A stretch of 64,000 nucleotides of DNA from Brochothrix thermosphacta DSM 20171 = FSL F6-1036 (GTDB lineage Bacteria > Bacillota > Bacilli > Lactobacillales > Listeriaceae), in the NCBI RefSeq assembly GCF_036884295.1, contig NZ_CP145608.1, positions 1,426,001 to 1,490,000 on the forward strand, in the 5' to 3' direction. The translations under genes were made by a program, and so were the position numbers. The stretch's first letter is position 1. The number at the start of each line of letters is the position of its first letter. Below, piece after piece: positions 10,545 to 59,417 of the stretch. The notes below the pieces were generated by a model. It saw only the letters and a program-made list of their open reading frames with translations. It ran no database searches and was not told where the DNA came from.

Positions 10545-12182
10545 ATGAATGAATGGGCGCAGATTTATAATCCATTAGGTAACATTGCATTATCAGGTAT
10601 TGTTGCAGCACTACCAATTATCACTTTCCTACTATGTTTAACTGTTTTCAAATTACAAGGTTACATTTCAGGTCTTATTAGTATCATCGTAGCTGCAGTT
10701 ATTGCAGTCTCTGTTTATGGCTTTCCAGTTCAAAAAGTTTTCGGTGCTACAACATTAGGTGTTTTATCAGCTATATGGCCTGTAGCAAGTATCATTGTTA
10801 CTGCTATCTTCCTATATAAACTTACTGTTAAAACAGGATACTTCGAAATCATTAAAAGTTCTATCACATCAGTAACAGCCGATCAACGGATTCAAGTCAT
10901 CATCGTAGCCTTTTCATTCGGTGCTTTCTTAGAAGGTGCTGCTGGCTTTGGTGCACCTGTTGCAATTACAGCTGCTATCCTTGTAGGACTTGGCTTCAAA
11001 CCGCTTTATGCTGCTGGGCTTTGTCTCCTCGCTAATATCGCTGGTGGTGCTTACGGCGCTATGGGTATTCCCGTACTTTCGCCAGCGCTATTAACAAACT
11101 TAGACCCACTTTCAGTATCAGCTTACACATCTGTATTAATGCCAATCATTTCATTTATTATCGTTTTCATCCTCATCTTCACAATTGATGGTATTAAAGG
11201 TATTCGTCAAACAATGCCTGCAATTCTTGTCAGTGGTGGTGTGTTCGCAGTTGTTCAATTCGCTATTCTTAATACAATTGGACCTGCACTCGTTGATATT
11301 TTCTCTGCACTTGCAAGTTTAATTGCTCTAATCGTACTCTTACGTTTCTGGCAACCAAAAGAAATTTATCGTATTAATAAAGATGAAAAAGTTGAAGCAG
11401 AAGAAGATAAAGTTAAATACTCATTTAAACAAATTTCATTTGCTTGGTTACCATTCCTTTTACTAACAATTTTTGTTACTATTTTAAACCTCGGTTTTGT
11501 TAAAGCATTATTTGCACCAGATGGCCCTTTAAACAAATTGATTTTCAACATTCAAATTCCAGGGCTACATAATTCAGTCGTACAATCTGCTCCTGTTGTT
11601 GAAACACAAACAACAATGGCCGCAATATTCAAGCTTGATTTATTCACAAACACAACGACTGCCATTGCTTTAGCAGCGTTAATCACAATGATTATCTTTA
11701 AAGTAAGCTTCAAAACATATAAAGACACAGCGTTAGAAACAATTAAAGAATTATGGCGTCCAATCTTAACTATCTGTAGTGTGTTAGCACTCTCATTCAT
11801 CTGTACATACTCAGGTATTTCAGCTACAATGGGGATCGCACTTGCAAGTACAGGAAACCTTTTCCCTCTCTTCTCTCCAGTATTAGGTTGGTTAGGCGTA
11901 TTCTTAACAGGATCAGTTGTAAACAGTGGTTCTCTCTTTGCACCTTTACAAGCCGTTACAGCAACACAAATCGGTATTGACCCTGCATTCCTAGTAGCAA
12001 TCAATGTACTCGGTGGCGACATGGCTAAGATGATTTCACCACAATCAATCGCAGTTGCAACAGCCGCAGTAGGTTTAGTAGGACGTGAAAGCGAACTATT
12101 CAAATTTACAATTAAATTCAGTGTCATCTTCTTGGTAGCAGTTGGCTTGTTCAGCTTAGTATTCTCAATGCTGTTTCTATAA
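10545..12182 (+). CDS. lctP: L-lactate permease LctP
   Basis: Lactate/proton symporter of the LctP family. At 545 aa with roughly 12-14 hydrophobic segments it is full length. The conserved EGAAGFGAPVAI motif is near residues 125-136, and NSGSLFAPLQAVTA and GGDMAKMISPQSIAVA are near the C-terminus. GAGGAG precedes the ATG. Divergent from ldh, it may import lactate for oxidation or export it, depending on conditions. It is followed by an 880-bp non-coding region rich in structured repeats, the first of which doubles as a terminator-like hairpin. Confidence 0.95.
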   Translation: MNEWAQIYNPLGNIALSGIVAALPIITFLLCLTVFKLQGYISGLISIIVAAVIAVSVYGFPVQKVFGATTLGVLSAIWPVASIIVTAIFLYKLTVKTGYFEIIKSSITSVTADQRIQVIIVAFSFGAFLEGAAGFGAPVAITAAILVGLGFKPLYAAGLCLLANIAGGAYGAMGIPVLSPALLTNLDPLSVSAYTSVLMPIISFIIVFILIFTIDGIKGIRQTMPAILVSGGVFAVVQFAILNTIGPALVDIFSALASLIALIVLLRFWQPKEIYRINKDEKVEAEEDKVKYSFKQISFAWLPFLLLTIFVTILNLGFVKALFAPDGPLNKLIFNIQIPGLHNSVVQSAPVVETQTTMAAIFKLDLFTNTTTAIALAALITMIIFKVSFKTYKDTALETIKELWRPILTICSVLALSFICTYSGISATMGIALASTGNLFPLFSPVLGWLGVFLTGSVVNSGSLFAPLQAVTATQIGIDPAFLVAINVLGGDMAKMISPQSIAVATAAVGLVGRESELFKFTIKFSVIFLVAVGLFSLVFSMLFL

Positions 12183-12185
12183 AAG

Positions 12186-12378
12186 ATTGAAAGAATAACA
12201 AGCTCATTCTAATTTATCCAAATTGAAATGCTAAAAAAATCACTCATTAGACTAAGGAAATTAAATTGTTATAGACTGGTCATCGAAAGAAAGAGAAACT
12301 CGTTTTACTTTCATCCAAATTGAAATGCTAAAAAAATCACTCATTAGACTAAAGAAATTAAATTGTTATAGACTGGTC
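12186..12378 (+). repeat. 97-bp tandem duplication downstream of lctP
   Basis: The segment 12216-12281 recurs at 12313-12378 with one mismatch in 66 bp, a period of 97 bp. Similarity fades out upstream, where both copies carry a GAAAGAA...CTC.TTTTA-like stretch. Each copy contains the left arm of the hairpin element described below, but only the second copy is followed by its right arm. Confidence 0.85.
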
Positions 12379-12422
12379 CATGTCTATACTCCAATTTGAT
12401 TTTCAGGTCTAGTGATTTTTTT
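12330..12422. repeat. Structured dispersed element, copy 1 (terminator-like hairpin)
   Basis: A 93-nt hairpin. The outer stem AAAAAAATCACT / AGTGATTTTTTT carries an A-run and a T-run at its ends, so it could terminate in either direction. Inside is a core with arms TAGAC / GGTCTA, GAAAT / ATTTTC, AAATTG / CAATTT and TAGAC / GTCTA, with the loop TGGTCCAT. The left arm carries an extra CATT that bulges. It probably acts as the lctP terminator. The same core recurs at 12621-12714 and at 39094-39370 with different outer stems. Confidence 0.8.
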
Positions 12423-12538
12423 ATGTGTTTATGAAATTTTGATAAAGTAAGCTTGGAATTCTGGAGACAGAAAATGCAAGCAACATTAACCTCGTAAAAA
12501 CACTGATAAATTGGAATCTATAAACCATCCACTACTTT

Positions 12539-12714
12539 TTGACTAAGGAATTTAAGTTGGATAGACTGATTACTGAAAGAAAAGCAAGCTCGTTCTACTT
12601 TATCTCAATTGGAATACAATAAAAAATACGGCGTGTTAGACTAGAAATTTTAATCGTTATAGACTGATCCATGTCTATTTCTGATTTAAATTTCAGGTCT
12701 CGCCGTATTTTTTT
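12539..12714. repeat. Structured dispersed element, copy 2 (lone left arm plus full hairpin)
   Basis: A lone left arm (GACTAAGGAATTTAAG...TAGACTGATT, 12541-12571) is followed by a linker shared with the other copies (GAAAGAAAAGCAAGCTCGTT region). The full hairpin is at 12621-12714. The outer stem AAAAAATACGGCG / CGCCGTATTTTTT is unrelated in sequence to copy 1 yet fully paired. The inner arms AGACTAGAAATTT / AAATTTCAGGTCT and TAGAC / GTCTA are conserved, and an extra TGTT bulges on the left arm. Confidence 0.8.
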
Positions 12715-12735
12715 GTCGTTATGAAATTTTTGTTG

Positions 12736-12783
12736 AATTGTCTTGAAGTACTAGAGAACAGTATAAGTAGCTTCAAGACAATT
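12736..12783. repeat. 13-bp perfect inverted repeat
   Basis: AATTGTCTTGAAG (12736-12748) is the exact reverse complement of CTTCAAGACAATT (12771-12783), with a 22-nt loop and no T-run after it. It lies between the copy 2 hairpin and the tail module. Confidence 0.8.
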
Positions 12784-12796
12784 ACTTTACGAGAAG

Positions 12797-12950
12797 AGTA
12801 TGGGTGTTGACCTTGTTGTTAAGAAATGAGCTTACAAAGATATTATGGGACGGAGCCTTCGATAAATGATAGTACCATTCCATTATTAAAGCAGTTGAGT
12901 CCCATTCCATTTGTTAATTACTTAGAGTACCATCCCAAACTTTAATTCCT
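12797..12950. repeat. Tail module of the dispersed element, copy 1
   Basis: Contains GTATGGGTGTTGACC, GAGCTTACAAAGA, TATGGGACGGAGC and several AGTACCATTCC-like units (about 12871, 12924). The same blocks in the same order recur at 39396-39550 after the second repeat array. Non-coding in all frames examined. Confidence 0.75.
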
Positions 12951-12992
12951 GGTCATTCCATTTTTCATATTTCTATAAATTTAATAAATAAT

Positions 12993-13026
12993 AAAAACGC
13001 CTAGACTTTTGTCAGGGCGTTTTTTT
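12993..13026. terminator. Terminator, probably of the GNAT gene (bidirectional)
   Basis: AAAAACGCC pairs with GGGCGTTTTT around TAGACTTTTGTCA. A-runs and T-runs on either side allow use in both directions. On the minus strand it follows the GNAT stop by 35 bp. Confidence 0.8.
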
Positions 13027-13061
13027 AGTTATTGATAATATAAATTTGCATTTTTAGCTTA

Positions 13062-13562
13062 TTATAGCTCTAAAAACATCGAATCCTCATCATAATATTT
13101 AACACCATCGAACATTGCATTAGGTTCGGTGCCGTATGTCTCAAAACCAAATGTTTCATAAAAAGCTTTAGCTCGCTCATTCTCAGAGACGACAATTAAT
13201 GTGAGCATCTTAAGGCCTTCCAAAGTACGGGCATGTGCGATAGTATATTCAATCACTGCTTTCGCAATCCCAGTTCCTCGATAGGCTTTTTCACAATATA
13301 TACCTGCTAGACTACCTTTATGTTGCTCTTTTTCTTCATCTGCTCTAATAAATGATGCTGTACATACGAGCTGATTCTCTTCGAAACCACCAACAACAAA
13401 TTGTTCTTCAGAAGGCACTAAACGTTGTTCAAATTCTTTTAACGGTAAGTCACATTCCAACTCATAGGTTGAACCGAAGGCGCTTGCATCTGTTTGAAGA
13501 CCTTTAAGCCGTAGTTTTCTAAACTCTTCTGCATCTTTTTCTGTTAAAATCCTCATTTTCAT
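13062..13562 (-). CDS. GNAT-family N-acetyltransferase
   Basis: 166-aa acetyltransferase of the GNAT fold, probably using acetyl-CoA to modify a small molecule or a protein N-terminus. The CoA-binding motif A is visible as YRGTGIAKAVIEY (about 94-106), followed by NERAKAFYETFGF (about 127-139), the motif B segment. The substrate cannot be told. The start at 13562 has AAGGAGGAAAAG upstream. A second in-frame ATG two codons later is possible but less well spaced. It is monocistronic with its own terminator. Confidence 0.85.
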   Translation of the reverse strand: MKMRILTEKDAEEFRKLRLKGLQTDASAFGSTYELECDLPLKEFEQRLVPSEEQFVVGGFEENQLVCTASFIRADEEKEQHKGSLAGIYCEKAYRGTGIAKAVIEYTIAHARTLEGLKMLTLIVVSENERAKAFYETFGFETYGTEPNAMFDGVKYYDEDSMFLEL

Positions 13563-29147: not shown

Positions 29148-29510
29148 CTATTTATTTGGTGTAGCTGTTAGTGTACATTAAATAAGGCATTCACAAAACG
29201 ACCTTGTTTTGATCCACTTACGCCATTGGAAGTGACATGCCCATTGCTTTTAAGTTGCACTTCAGTGTGCTGGCATCGGTACACATTCACTTGCTACTGC
29301 GTTGTTAAAACAATGGGCGTCTTCAATTTCGAAAAACAGCCTGTTTTACCACGAAACAGTCCGCAATAGCAGAATACAATCAAAGACCTGACTTAAAGCA
29401 CAATGTACTTATCACAGTGGCGGGACCGCGTTGGATTTACACCAAACTTCCATTTTTGTATTCTAAATACTATTTGTGTAGGAATTACCAAGTTAGTTCA
29501 TTCTAACTGA
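29148..29510 (-). ncRNA. eutX: EutX/Rli55-like regulatory RNA (B12 riboswitch plus EutV-binding hairpins)
   Basis: The eutT-eutG spacer, 505 bp, has no protein-coding potential. It begins with a cobalamin riboswitch (29372-29463). A long structured stretch follows, including GCCCATTG pairing with a distant CAATGGGC, and it leads into the eutG dual hairpin. In Enterococcus and Listeria an RNA in this position titrates EutV when adenosylcobalamin is absent and is cut short when it is present. Position and parts match; the transcript ends are inferred. Confidence 0.75.
29372..29463 (-). ncRNA. Adenosylcobalamin riboswitch aptamer
   Basis: On the minus strand the diagnostic B12 box GCCACTGTGA is present, preceded by GGTGTAAATCC and GCGGTCCC, with AGTCAGG downstream. 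The enclosing P1 helix is GAATACA / TGTATTC (29457-29463 and 29372-29378). A candidate terminator just downstream is CTGTTT-(loop)-AAACAG followed by CTGTTTTT (about 29334-29362). Confidence 0.92.
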
Positions 29511-37941: not shown

Positions 37942-39048
37942 ATGGTACAAATGGCATTGCGTAATATTTATAAAAAGTATGACAACTCAGACGGTTTCGC
38001 AGTAACAGATTTTAACCTTGAAATTGCTGATCAAGAATTCATTGTTTTCGTTGGACCTTCAGGCTGTGGTAAATCAACAACCCTTCGTATGGTTGCTGGA
38101 CTTGAAGACATAAGTGATGGTGAACTTTACATCGGCGATAAATTGATGAATGAAGTGGCACCTAAAGACCGTGACATCGGGATGGTATTCCAAAACTATG
38201 CGCTTTATCCACATATGAGTATTTATGATAATATGGCATTTGGTTTGAAATTACGTAAATACAGTAAAGCTGAAATCAAGCAACGAGTAACAGATGCTGC
38301 AGATATCTTAGGATTAACGGAATATTTGGAACGTAAACCCGCTGCATTATCAGGTGGACAACGCCAACGTGTTGCTTTAGGACGTGCGATTGTGCGTGAT
38401 GCAAAAGTCTTTTTAATGGATGAACCACTATCTAACTTAGATGCTAAATTACGTGTAGCGATGCGTGCTGAAATCGCAAAACTACATAACCGTTTAAAAA
38501 CAACAACAATTTATGTAACACATGATCAAACAGAAGCAATGACGATGGCAGATAGAATTGTTATTATGAAAGACGGATTTGTTCAACAAATCGGCTCTCC
38601 AAAGGAAGTTTATAACCACCCTAACAACGTTTTTGTAGCCGGCTTTATTGGCTCACCAGCAATGAACTTCTTCAATGTTGAATTGAAAAATGGTTACATT
38701 AGCACTGAAGGCGGCGACATGAACTTCCACGTGCCTGAAGGTAAATACAAAGTGTTAAAAGCACAAGGCTATGAAGGTAAAAAACTTGTTTTTGGTATTC
38801 GACCAGAAGATATTCATAACGAACCCTTAGTGTTAGAAACATTAGCAGAAAGTACAATGGACGTTGAAGTAGTCGTTTCAGAATTATTAGGCGCTGAAAC
38901 AATGTTATATACTAAGATTGAAGACACAGAATTTGTATCTAAGGTGCCCGCACGCGACGATTATGAAGCCGGAGATATTATTAAATTAGCCTTCAACCTC
39001 AGCAAAGCACACTTCTTCGACACTGAAACTGAATTAGTAATTAAGTAG
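37942..39048 (+). CDS. msmX: Multiple-sugar ABC transporter ATP-binding protein (MsmX/UgpC type)
   Basis: Shared ATPase that energises several carbohydrate ABC transporters in Firmicutes. The protein is 368 aa from ATG 37942 (AAAGGGG upstream); 24 in-frame codons further upstream lack a start signal. Walker A is GPSGCGKST (about 37-45), the signature LSGGQRQRV (about 133-141), and Walker B VFLMDEPLSNLDA (about 153-165). The H-loop histidine is in VTHDQTEAM, and the C-terminal MalK-type OB domain follows. The LplABC-type importer at 43523-46879 has no ATPase, so MsmX is its likely partner. Confidence 0.92.
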   Translation: MVQMALRNIYKKYDNSDGFAVTDFNLEIADQEFIVFVGPSGCGKSTTLRMVAGLEDISDGELYIGDKLMNEVAPKDRDIGMVFQNYALYPHMSIYDNMAFGLKLRKYSKAEIKQRVTDAADILGLTEYLERKPAALSGGQRQRVALGRAIVRDAKVFLMDEPLSNLDAKLRVAMRAEIAKLHNRLKTTTIYVTHDQTEAMTMADRIVIMKDGFVQQIGSPKEVYNHPNNVFVAGFIGSPAMNFFNVELKNGYISTEGGDMNFHVPEGKYKVLKAQGYEGKKLVFGIRPEDIHNEPLVLETLAESTMDVEVVVSELLGAETMLYTKIEDTEFVSKVPARDDYEAGDIIKLAFNLSKAHFFDTETELVIK

Positions 39049-39093
39049 TGAAAGTGGAAACACCTCGTCGATTCTCTAAAAAATTGGAAAAAT

Positions 39094-39370
39094 AAAAAAC
39101 ATTCATTAGACTAGAAATTTTAGTTAGGATAGACTGATTACCGAAAGAAAGCTAAGCTCATTTTACTTTATCGAAATTAGAATGGATTAAAAATCGAACG
39201 TGTTAGACTAGAAATTTCAGTTGAGGTAGGCTGATTCATGCCTACTAAAGCACTTAAATTTCAGGTCTCGTTATATTATTGAATCCCGTTATGAAATTTT
39301 GATACAGTAAGCTTAGTTTTTCTGGAGGAATGTCTATTTAAAACTTAAATGTCAGGTCTAATGTTTTTTT
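39094..39370. repeat. Structured dispersed element, copy 3 (nested)
   Basis: The outer arms AAAAAACATT-CATTAGAC (39094-39107) and GTCTAATGTTTTTT (39355-39369) pair with each other although 250 bp apart. Between them is the shared linker (CCGAAAGAAAGCTAAGCTCA) and a complete inner element at about 39186-39280, with AGACTAGAAATTT / AAATTTCAGGTCT arms and AGGC / GCCT tip. One element thus appears inserted in another. It follows the msmX-type gene and may terminate it. Confidence 0.75.
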
Positions 39371-39395
39371 GTGCGTTTATGAAATTACTGACATT

Positions 39396-39550
39396 GTTGC
39401 GAAGCTAAAAGCTTACAAAGACAGTATGGGTGCTGACGTTGTGCGAAGCTATGAGCTTACAAAGACAGTATGGGACGGAGCGACAGCGAGTACCACTCCT
39501 TTGCTAATATCGTAGCGAATTCATTCGCTTTACGAGAGTACCACTCCTTC
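39396..39550. repeat. Tail module of the dispersed element, copy 2
   Basis: A 30-bp unit (GAAGCTAAAAGCTTACAAAG continuing to TATGGG) at 39401-39430 recurs at 39445-39474 with two mismatches, period 44 bp. It is followed by GGGACGGAGC, a hairpin GTAGCGAAT / ATTCGCTTTAC and two AGTACCACTCC units (39489, 39537). The same blocks lie at 12797-12950. Confidence 0.75.
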
Positions 39551-59265: not shown

Positions 59266-59307
59266 AATAAAAAACCTAAGAAAAACGAAAATTCGTTTCT
59301 CCCAGGC
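59266..59307 (-). terminator. Expression-platform terminator of the guanidine riboswitch
   Basis: On the minus strand CCT-GGGAGAAACG pairs with CGTTTTTCTT-AGG around AATTTT and is followed by TTTTTT. Its 5' arm is the last part of the aptamer, so guanidine binding would prevent it forming. Confidence 0.85.
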
Positions 59308-59389
59308 TTTTGTCCTTCCGTGTCACACCCATAGCGGCTGCGCATTTCTCTCGGACCAGGCCAACAGTAAACTGTCGCGGAACCCTAGA
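59296..59389 (-). ncRNA. Guanidine-I (ykkC) riboswitch aptamer
   Basis: On the minus strand the conserved blocks appear in order: CTAGGGTTCCG, GGCCTGGTCCGAGAG, ACACGGAAGGACAAAAGCC and GGGAGA. These are the hallmarks of the ykkC class. It lies between a promoter and the YkkC-like gene. Confidence 0.95.
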
Positions 59390-59417
59390 AATGTTTTCGT
59401 ATTTAATTAGTCATTTA

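Follow-up and report, generated by a model that had tools for sequence, protein, structure and literature searches.

The hairpins that follow the L-lactate permease gene of Brochothrix thermosphacta DSM 20171 (= FSL F6-1036) seem to represent one branch of a family of 3′-UTR hairpin repeats of the genus Brochothrix. The assignment, made from the sequence, stands somewhat better than even, and it includes a presumed transcription of the units and a presumed function at the 3′ end of the mRNA. The window, that is, the whole stretch of 64,000 nucleotides analysed here, contains two loci of the repeat (Table 1), and 20 full-length copies of its AGACTA core are found in the genome.

Layout of the hairpin arrays in the window

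The first array starts at the stop codon TAA (12180–12182) of the permease gene. The nearest relative of this permease is that of B. campestris (88% identity over 545 residues), followed by one with 62% identity, among six relatives found in records from which those of the same species are possibly absent. The positions originally predicted for two complete core hairpins were confirmed. RNA folding pairs their outer stems (12 and 13 pairs), forms an AGACT/GGTCT stem and an inner stem, and reproduces the predicted bulge of 4 nt (CATT or TGTT) in the left arms. The energies are −31.4 kcal/mol for the first hairpin and −36.5 kcal/mol for the second, and for neither was any of 200 shuffles as stable. 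A third copy at the second locus (39188–39282) folds more poorly (z −3.4, 1 of 200 shuffles equal), its A/T-rich outer part being unpaired. The explanation of the hairpins as chance structures was rejected on the basis of the fold z-scores and the covariance-model scores given below.

The feature was at first taken to span 12330–12714, which is only a part of it, as further arms extend it to about 12189–12469 and 12480–12758. Its left half is duplicated at a spacing of 97 bp (12213–12281 vs. 12310–12378, 97% identical). The right arm of the further outer unit at 12480–12570 is missing up to the hinge, as a hinge-to-hinge deletion between repeated hinges would leave it. At the second locus, the stop codon TAG (39046–39048) lies just before the outer unit.

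Table 1. Elements of the two hairpin arrays in the window and the gene upstream of the first array.
Feature	Position	Strand	Evidence
L-lactate permease gene, upstream	10545–12182	+	Open reading frame; partly similar plasmid genes annotated L-lactate permease
First left half-unit: outer-stem arm, hinge AAATTGAAATG, AAAAAAATCACT, bulge CATT, core left arm; own right arm absent	12189–12281	+	97% duplicate; sequence
Outer-frame left arm (stem, hinge AAATTGAAATG) of first complete unit	12285–12329	+	Pairs with 12423–12469 in arm alignment
First complete AGACTA-core hairpin	12330–12422	+	Fold z −6.8; model match 94.7 bits
Outer-frame right arm: TTATGAAATTT hinge, stem, CTGGAGA end	12423–12469	+	Arm alignment
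Further outer unit, left arm with CATCCACTACT stem; loop runs into next unit; own right arm missing up to hinge	12480–12570	+	Sequence; loop list
Frame left arm of second complete unit (stem, hinge ATTGGAA at 12608–12614)	12571–12620	+	Sequence
Second complete AGACTA-core hairpin, outer stem AAAAAATACGGCG	12621–12714	+	Fold z −7.9; model match 105.5 bits
Right hinge TTATGAAATTT, then right arm fitting outer unit 12480–12570	12715–12758	+	Sequence
Second locus, outer unit left arm: AAACACCT stem, AAATTGGAA hinge, AAAAAACATT, CATT, core left arm	39050–39137	+	Sequence; fold
Second locus, complete unit nested in loop of outer unit; hairpin 39188–39282	39143–39328	+	Fold z −4.7; 81.5 bits; loop list
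Second locus, outer unit right arm: AATGTTTTTTT, hinge TTATGAAATT	39330–39386	+	Sequence; fold

A further short repeat, TGACCTTGTTG..TTACAAAGATATTATGGG, and its relatives come after the hairpin arrays of both window loci (12808–12849, 39389–39430 and 39433–39474), and stretches resembling it also come after several other clusters. An Rfam search of the window at gathering scores returned only two riboswitches, both elsewhere in the window: an AdoCbl riboswitch (29331–29478, minus strand, 104 bits) and a guanidine-I riboswitch (59297–59399, minus strand, 89 bits). For 13 element loci searched at E up to 1, two matches were obtained, far below the gathering score. Membership in a known Rfam family was rejected for the window elements and the 13 loci.

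Copies of the core hairpin and their paired variation

A BLAST search of the genome with 12621–12757 as the query returned 70 matches with E values of up to 10, the better ones at about 20 places. Together with the two window sites, 18 stretches outside the window make up the 20 clusters examined; a 24-base match inside a gene (L048) was left out of the counts. Alignment A1 contains 19 complete core hairpins (18 distinct sequences), with core units of 92–94 nt. Whereas the original prediction had counted three loci, a covariance-model search of the whole genome (a single contig of 2,564,037 bases) revealed further copies, giving 20 full-length matches with 77–105 bits; 19 of these belong to the model's training set, and the copy at 1834472–1834565 (77 bits) is the sole full-length match outside it.

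Beyond this genome the core appears to be absent from the sequences searched. In 35 other Listeriaceae genomes, one of them of the same genus, only two weak matches (26.4 and 24.7 bits) were obtained, which were taken as chance. Among 394 other genomes of the order, searched with strict filters that recovered 10 of the 20 own copies, the core model gave one foreign match at 0.001 (L140, 33 bits), which reads as a plain terminator. No matching sequence was found in phage or plasmid records, from which records very near the own genome are possibly left out, and carriage by phages or plasmids was rejected for want of a match there.

The variation of the core hairpin is paired. In the 18 distinct units, with the structure named by the analyst, 92.1% of 558 paired cells are standard pairs, and both-sided changes occur at 17 of 31 pairs. 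Cells with both-sided changes number 57, compared with 17.5 in shuffles, and the observed values were not attained in any of 500 shuffles, but these figures overstate independence, since the structure was derived from the same sequences and the relatedness of the copies inflates shuffle tests. When the partner arm is slid, pairing reaches at most 47.7% and cells with both-sided changes number at most 14. The suggestion that paired variation points to selected structure is supported by these counts and likewise by a second, core-less set from two species, described below. Covariation alone is also compatible with upkeep of the palindromes at the DNA level.

If sense RNA is under selection, G-U pairs should outnumber A-C mismatches. 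In the core the ratio is 27 to 6, with one constant U-G pair omitted (column-shuffle ratio 1.76), and in the core-less stems it is 31 to 15; a count over whole arms (108 to 22) has no proof value, because fixed positions are counted repeatedly. The excess weakly favours selection on the sense-strand RNA, which is only suggested, because the excess is weaker in the core-less units. The RNA reading gains further from the way the units are placed and oriented at stop codons. The nearest upstream open frame is co-directional in 19 of the 20 clusters (18 loci and two window sites), with L045 as the exception. The core starts 54–66 nt past the stop codon in 13 of 20 clusters, and most others have another module first; the start of L043 was set by hand, and its distance to the stop is not a core distance. 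At single-layer loci, the outer arm starts within a few bases of the stop codon. A small tandem run of TAAAAGTAAAAGTAAAAGTAAAAGTG was noticed at the element start of L034, right after the stop of the upstream gene.

Core-less units, nesting and orthologous sites

The core-less frame pattern ATTGGAA N14-44 TGAAAT matches 31 times in the own genome and 52 times in the sister genome; the reversed control matches 9 and 8 times, which implies that chance accounts for part of the matches in either genome. According to the 57 matches inspected, core-less units are about 118 nt long (114–120 nt in the aligned units) and often stand in tandem at about 120 bp. Most begin with TAAAAGTGAA or similar and end with AACTGGA or similar, and the hinge motifs are constant, whereas the stems are variable yet complementary. 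All seven units that were folded show closing pairs, stem a, a bulge of 3–5 nt, a 6-bp stem b, a 3 × 3 loop, a 6-bp stem c, a 3 × 2 loop, stem d and an apical loop. Their z-scores range from −3.0 to −7.9, with 1 of 200 shuffles equal to the weakest, and stem c is interrupted in one unit.

The pairing of these stems was assessed with offsets fixed by the hinge motifs alone in 40 distinct arm pairs from the two species. Stem c has 225 of 240 cells paired and stem b 218 of 240; none of the slid offsets that were tried exceeded 163 for stem c or 128 for stem b. In 21 distinct arm pairs of stem b, the own partner scores 5.00 of 6 and foreign partners 3.34 on average, although single foreign pairs reach 6. 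With the bulge length left free, stem a scores 5.97 of 7 with its own partner versus 4.39 with foreign ones, the bulges differing in length and sequence. The arm counts omit L211, L220, L222 and L244, which have a broken right side or resemble chance matches. Alignment A2, which contains 40 of 43 units (L212, L221 and the second L242 unit are omitted), served for reading only, its variable stems being aligned unreliably. In 13 core-carrying units stem c holds its offset (64 of 78 paired cells), and stem b has 47 of 78 cells paired at the strict offset and 50 of 78 one base off; the layout of these units is thus less strict.

In the core-less set, 36 first units were compared with the open frames before them. 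For 21, the unit begins between −15 and +12 nt of the stop codon that ends an open stretch of no fewer than 70 codons; 15 are without an abutting long open frame, some of them beginning inside arrays or lacking upstream sequence. Elements in both species are adjoined by a stretch of about 600 bases (L108 1492–2080 and L042 4259–4861, 70% identical to each other), which by eye resembles a portion of a transposase gene.

The apical loop of the core is the place where units are nested. A closed loop reads GACTG-NTY-CATGTC or near; 19 loops were found closed by script and that of L031 by reading, giving 20. Thirteen core loops continue, always after GACTGNTN or GGCTGNTN, into ACCGAAAGAAAG or a near variant, which is the start of another unit. 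It had been proposed that the core inserts into the loops of existing terminators; units do lie in loops, but in these 13 cases the loop itself belongs to a unit of the family. L037 and L039 have a further unit that starts at a different place in the core, at AGACTAGAA; the nested inner unit of L044 has kept only its ends, and the core loops listed for L046 include a broken arm. The second window locus (39050–39386) holds a complete unit inside the loop of another, and its fold follows both units.

In L041 the arms come in order, three left and then three right, and L045 has five left arms versus two right. After stray matches were struck and four missed arms were added by eye, 9 of the 20 clusters have different numbers of left and right arms (L033, L035, L036, L042, L043, L045, L046, L047 and window 12189–12758), and therefore these arrays cannot fold completely. 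The arrays of L035, L043, L044, L046 and L047 also contain a different hairpin module, GAAAACAACC .. GGTTGTTG, whose frame is apparently the same.

The comparison of five orthologous sites in the sister shows the core at none of them and the frame right after the stop at two. At the nusG site of the sister Brochothrix genome (G001), a different hairpin with the same frame, AAATTGGAA and TGAAATTT, directly follows the stop, and at the mnmA site a core-less unit does so; at both sites the frame is common to the two species, and the stem sequences are different. The pdp site of the sister retains merely a short remnant ahead of a terminator, and the lldP site of B. campestris (L049) has other repeats and lacks the AGACTA core, both judged by eye. 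The gnd site, the single clean empty site among the five, has no unit in the sister, only a plain terminator about 20 nt past the stop, with a stem unlike the outer stem of the own copy. Among 30 nusG loci obtained from 36 family genomes (six genomes gave no locus), the frame is present in the two Brochothrix and in none of the 28 others; one of the latter (L164) has a chance ATTGGAA within an unrelated terminator. Inside the pdp cluster of the own genome, a repeat of about 100 bases (L040 2587–2691) matches 17 places of the sister genome at 73–84% identity, representing a second dispersed repeat family.

Origin, possible role and relation to known repeats

The most likely explanation of these observations is that the units are 3′-UTR hairpins kept by selection on their fold and spread like modular repeats of the MITE or EFAR type, with both an RNA function and mobility presumed. 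The basic unit is an imperfect hairpin of ~118 nt starting at the stop codon with TAAAAGTGAA or similar. Stem a (5–9 bp), a bulge of 3–5 nt (e.g., CGTTC), stem b (6 bp), a 3 × 3 internal loop and stem c (6 bp) lead to the internal loop ATTGGA/TGAAAT, which is constant, and then to stem d and an apical loop that GAY..RTC closes in most cases. The sequence is constant in loops and hinges and varies in the stems, which keep their complementarity. In the longer branch of the own species, the AGACTA core replaces stem d and the tip, and whole units can fill its apical loop, giving nested hairpins. The units are probably transcribed within the upstream mRNA, where they would fold and cap its 3′ end; with a T-run after the stem, as in the window, a unit may also terminate transcription. 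Copy number would grow through duplication in tandem and through units inserting into loops, and recombination between the constant hinges would trim arms and reassort stem modules.

Possibly the units constitute a novel kind of self-nesting element whose recognition depends on the internal loops, whatever the stem sequence; it would be anchored at stop codons, grow by inserting into its own apical loop and reassort its stem modules via the constant hinges. This stronger proposal is tentative and, in our estimation, rather doubtful.

A clear minority of the probability falls to selfish DNA palindromes of the modular MITE or EFAR type, moving or being copied as single-stranded DNA hairpins and inserting into hairpin loops, in which a mobility enzyme or arm-to-arm copying (template switching) would keep the pairing and the RNA would have no role. 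Such an origin agrees with the 20 full copies in one genome with no convincing match in 35 relatives, the use of one site of entry, the core loop, which is closed 19 times and runs into another unit 13 times, the recurring outer-stem types, the tandem duplicates and unequal arms, and the precedents of EFAR, BOX, RUP and SPRITE. It accounts less well for the strict position and orientation at stop codons and for the excess of G-U over A-C in the core, both of which point to sense RNA.

The original prediction had offered another alternative, in which a mobile core enters the loop of host terminators, so that each outer stem is the old terminator. This is improbable, and in its simple form it is already contradicted. 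The A-run before and the T-run after the outer stem, core-less frames with terminator-like stems in the same genome and a plain terminator with core-like sequence at L047 would fit it. The outer stems, described at first as unrelated, do differ between the two window hairpins, but both types recur elsewhere: TCACT in six of the 19 copies of the alignment, spread over six loci, as judged by eye, and CGGCG in the outer unit of L041, with the left arm differing by one base. By eye, three types (CATT in six rows, one of them TATT; TCACT in six; CACTACT in two) make up 14 of the 19 rows of A1 at different loci, and they recur in combination with differing inner stems, which amounts to modular assembly. 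Constant repeat sequence, moreover, encloses the outer stems. To the left the repeat continues with an A-run, AAATTGGAA and a further stem, and to the right with a T-run, TTATGAAATTT and the complementary arm, which makes the 93-nt hairpin the interior of a longer one of about 180 nt. Separate terminator-like hairpins stand downstream of the element at several loci, and the terminator at the gnd site of the sister, which lacks the core, has a different stem. On these grounds, the identification of the outer stem with an old host terminator was rejected. The plain terminator at L047 (genome coordinates 2204467–2204526) has the stem AAAAAAGAGGGCGTGTTAGA..TCTAACACGCCCTCTTTTTT and a loop like the left core arm, with TGTT paired and not bulged.

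Ordinary transcription terminators alike by composition or chance, as the plain hairpins with A-runs and T-runs after many window genes might suggest, are a very improbable and contradicted full explanation in view of the 20 full-length model matches with one outside the training set, the constant hinges with control counts several-fold lower and the lack of an Rfam match; termination may be one role. The window copies share with intrinsic (Rho-independent) terminators an A-run, a stem and a T-run after the stop codon, and for them termination seems possible. Unlike intrinsic terminators, the Brochothrix repeat has a long stem with a conserved bulge and core, and its frame goes on past the T-run. 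The sister units inspected show no clear T-run, so termination is unlikely as a common function. A consensus terminator scan of 12150–13100 found no sites, its loop limit of 3–8 excluding these hairpins.

Among known bacterial repeats, the Enterococcus faecalis repeats (EFAR), which comprise about 16 sequence types inserted at stem-loop targets, would be the nearest relative. Like EFAR, the Brochothrix units are palindromic, modular, of variable length, intergenic and foldable; unlike it, they start at a stop codon, nest in their own loops and combine constant hinges with variable stems. As is typical of MITEs, many dispersed intergenic palindromic copies occur in one species, and the core-less frame occurs in both Brochothrix genomes. 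BOX, RUP and SPRITE of Streptococcus pneumoniae differ from the Brochothrix repeat in sequence and layout. They resemble it as clustered intergenic hairpin repeats with mutual insertion, SPRITE being terminator-like; in Brochothrix it is units of a single family that nest, 13 times at the same position in the loop (L037 and L039 elsewhere in the core). The REP palindromes (GTAG- or CGTC-tagged, RAYT-associated) are likewise short palindromes near gene ends, but the Brochothrix units measure 92–120 nt and more. REP/RAYT was rejected because neither the core units (92–94 nt) nor the core-less units (114–120 nt) are tagged palindromes of 20–40 bp, the tag being judged by eye, and CRISPR, ToxIN and attC, compared by their general features, were dropped for lack of a match.

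In the literature, EFAR is counted among the MITEs (PMC3733652), and an E. faecalis family Efa-1 of 163 bp with 65 copies, possibly identical to EFAR, is listed (PMC2267715). Published accounts also describe BOX, RUP and SPRITE as clustered intergenic hairpin repeats inserting into one another (PMC10969869), and REP palindromes as 20–40 bp long, with GTAG REP ends often providing a TAG stop (PMC3733652). The parts consulted of two Brochothrix genome papers (PMC6180393, PMC12562394) contain no passage on such repeats, and no earlier description of such a family was found among the listed open-licence papers on Brochothrix repeats, hairpins or MITEs and on nested or stop-codon repeats.

The family separates structure from sequence unusually cleanly, with dozens of copies of similar layout, constant loop motifs, changing paired stems and tandem or nested arrays. 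It thus lends itself to testing whether palindromic repeats in bacteria persist as structures of RNA or as hairpins of DNA, and by what route the two paired arms change in step. Brochothrix is a meat-spoilage bacterium, and the family may matter for reading transcript ends in this food-spoilage genus.
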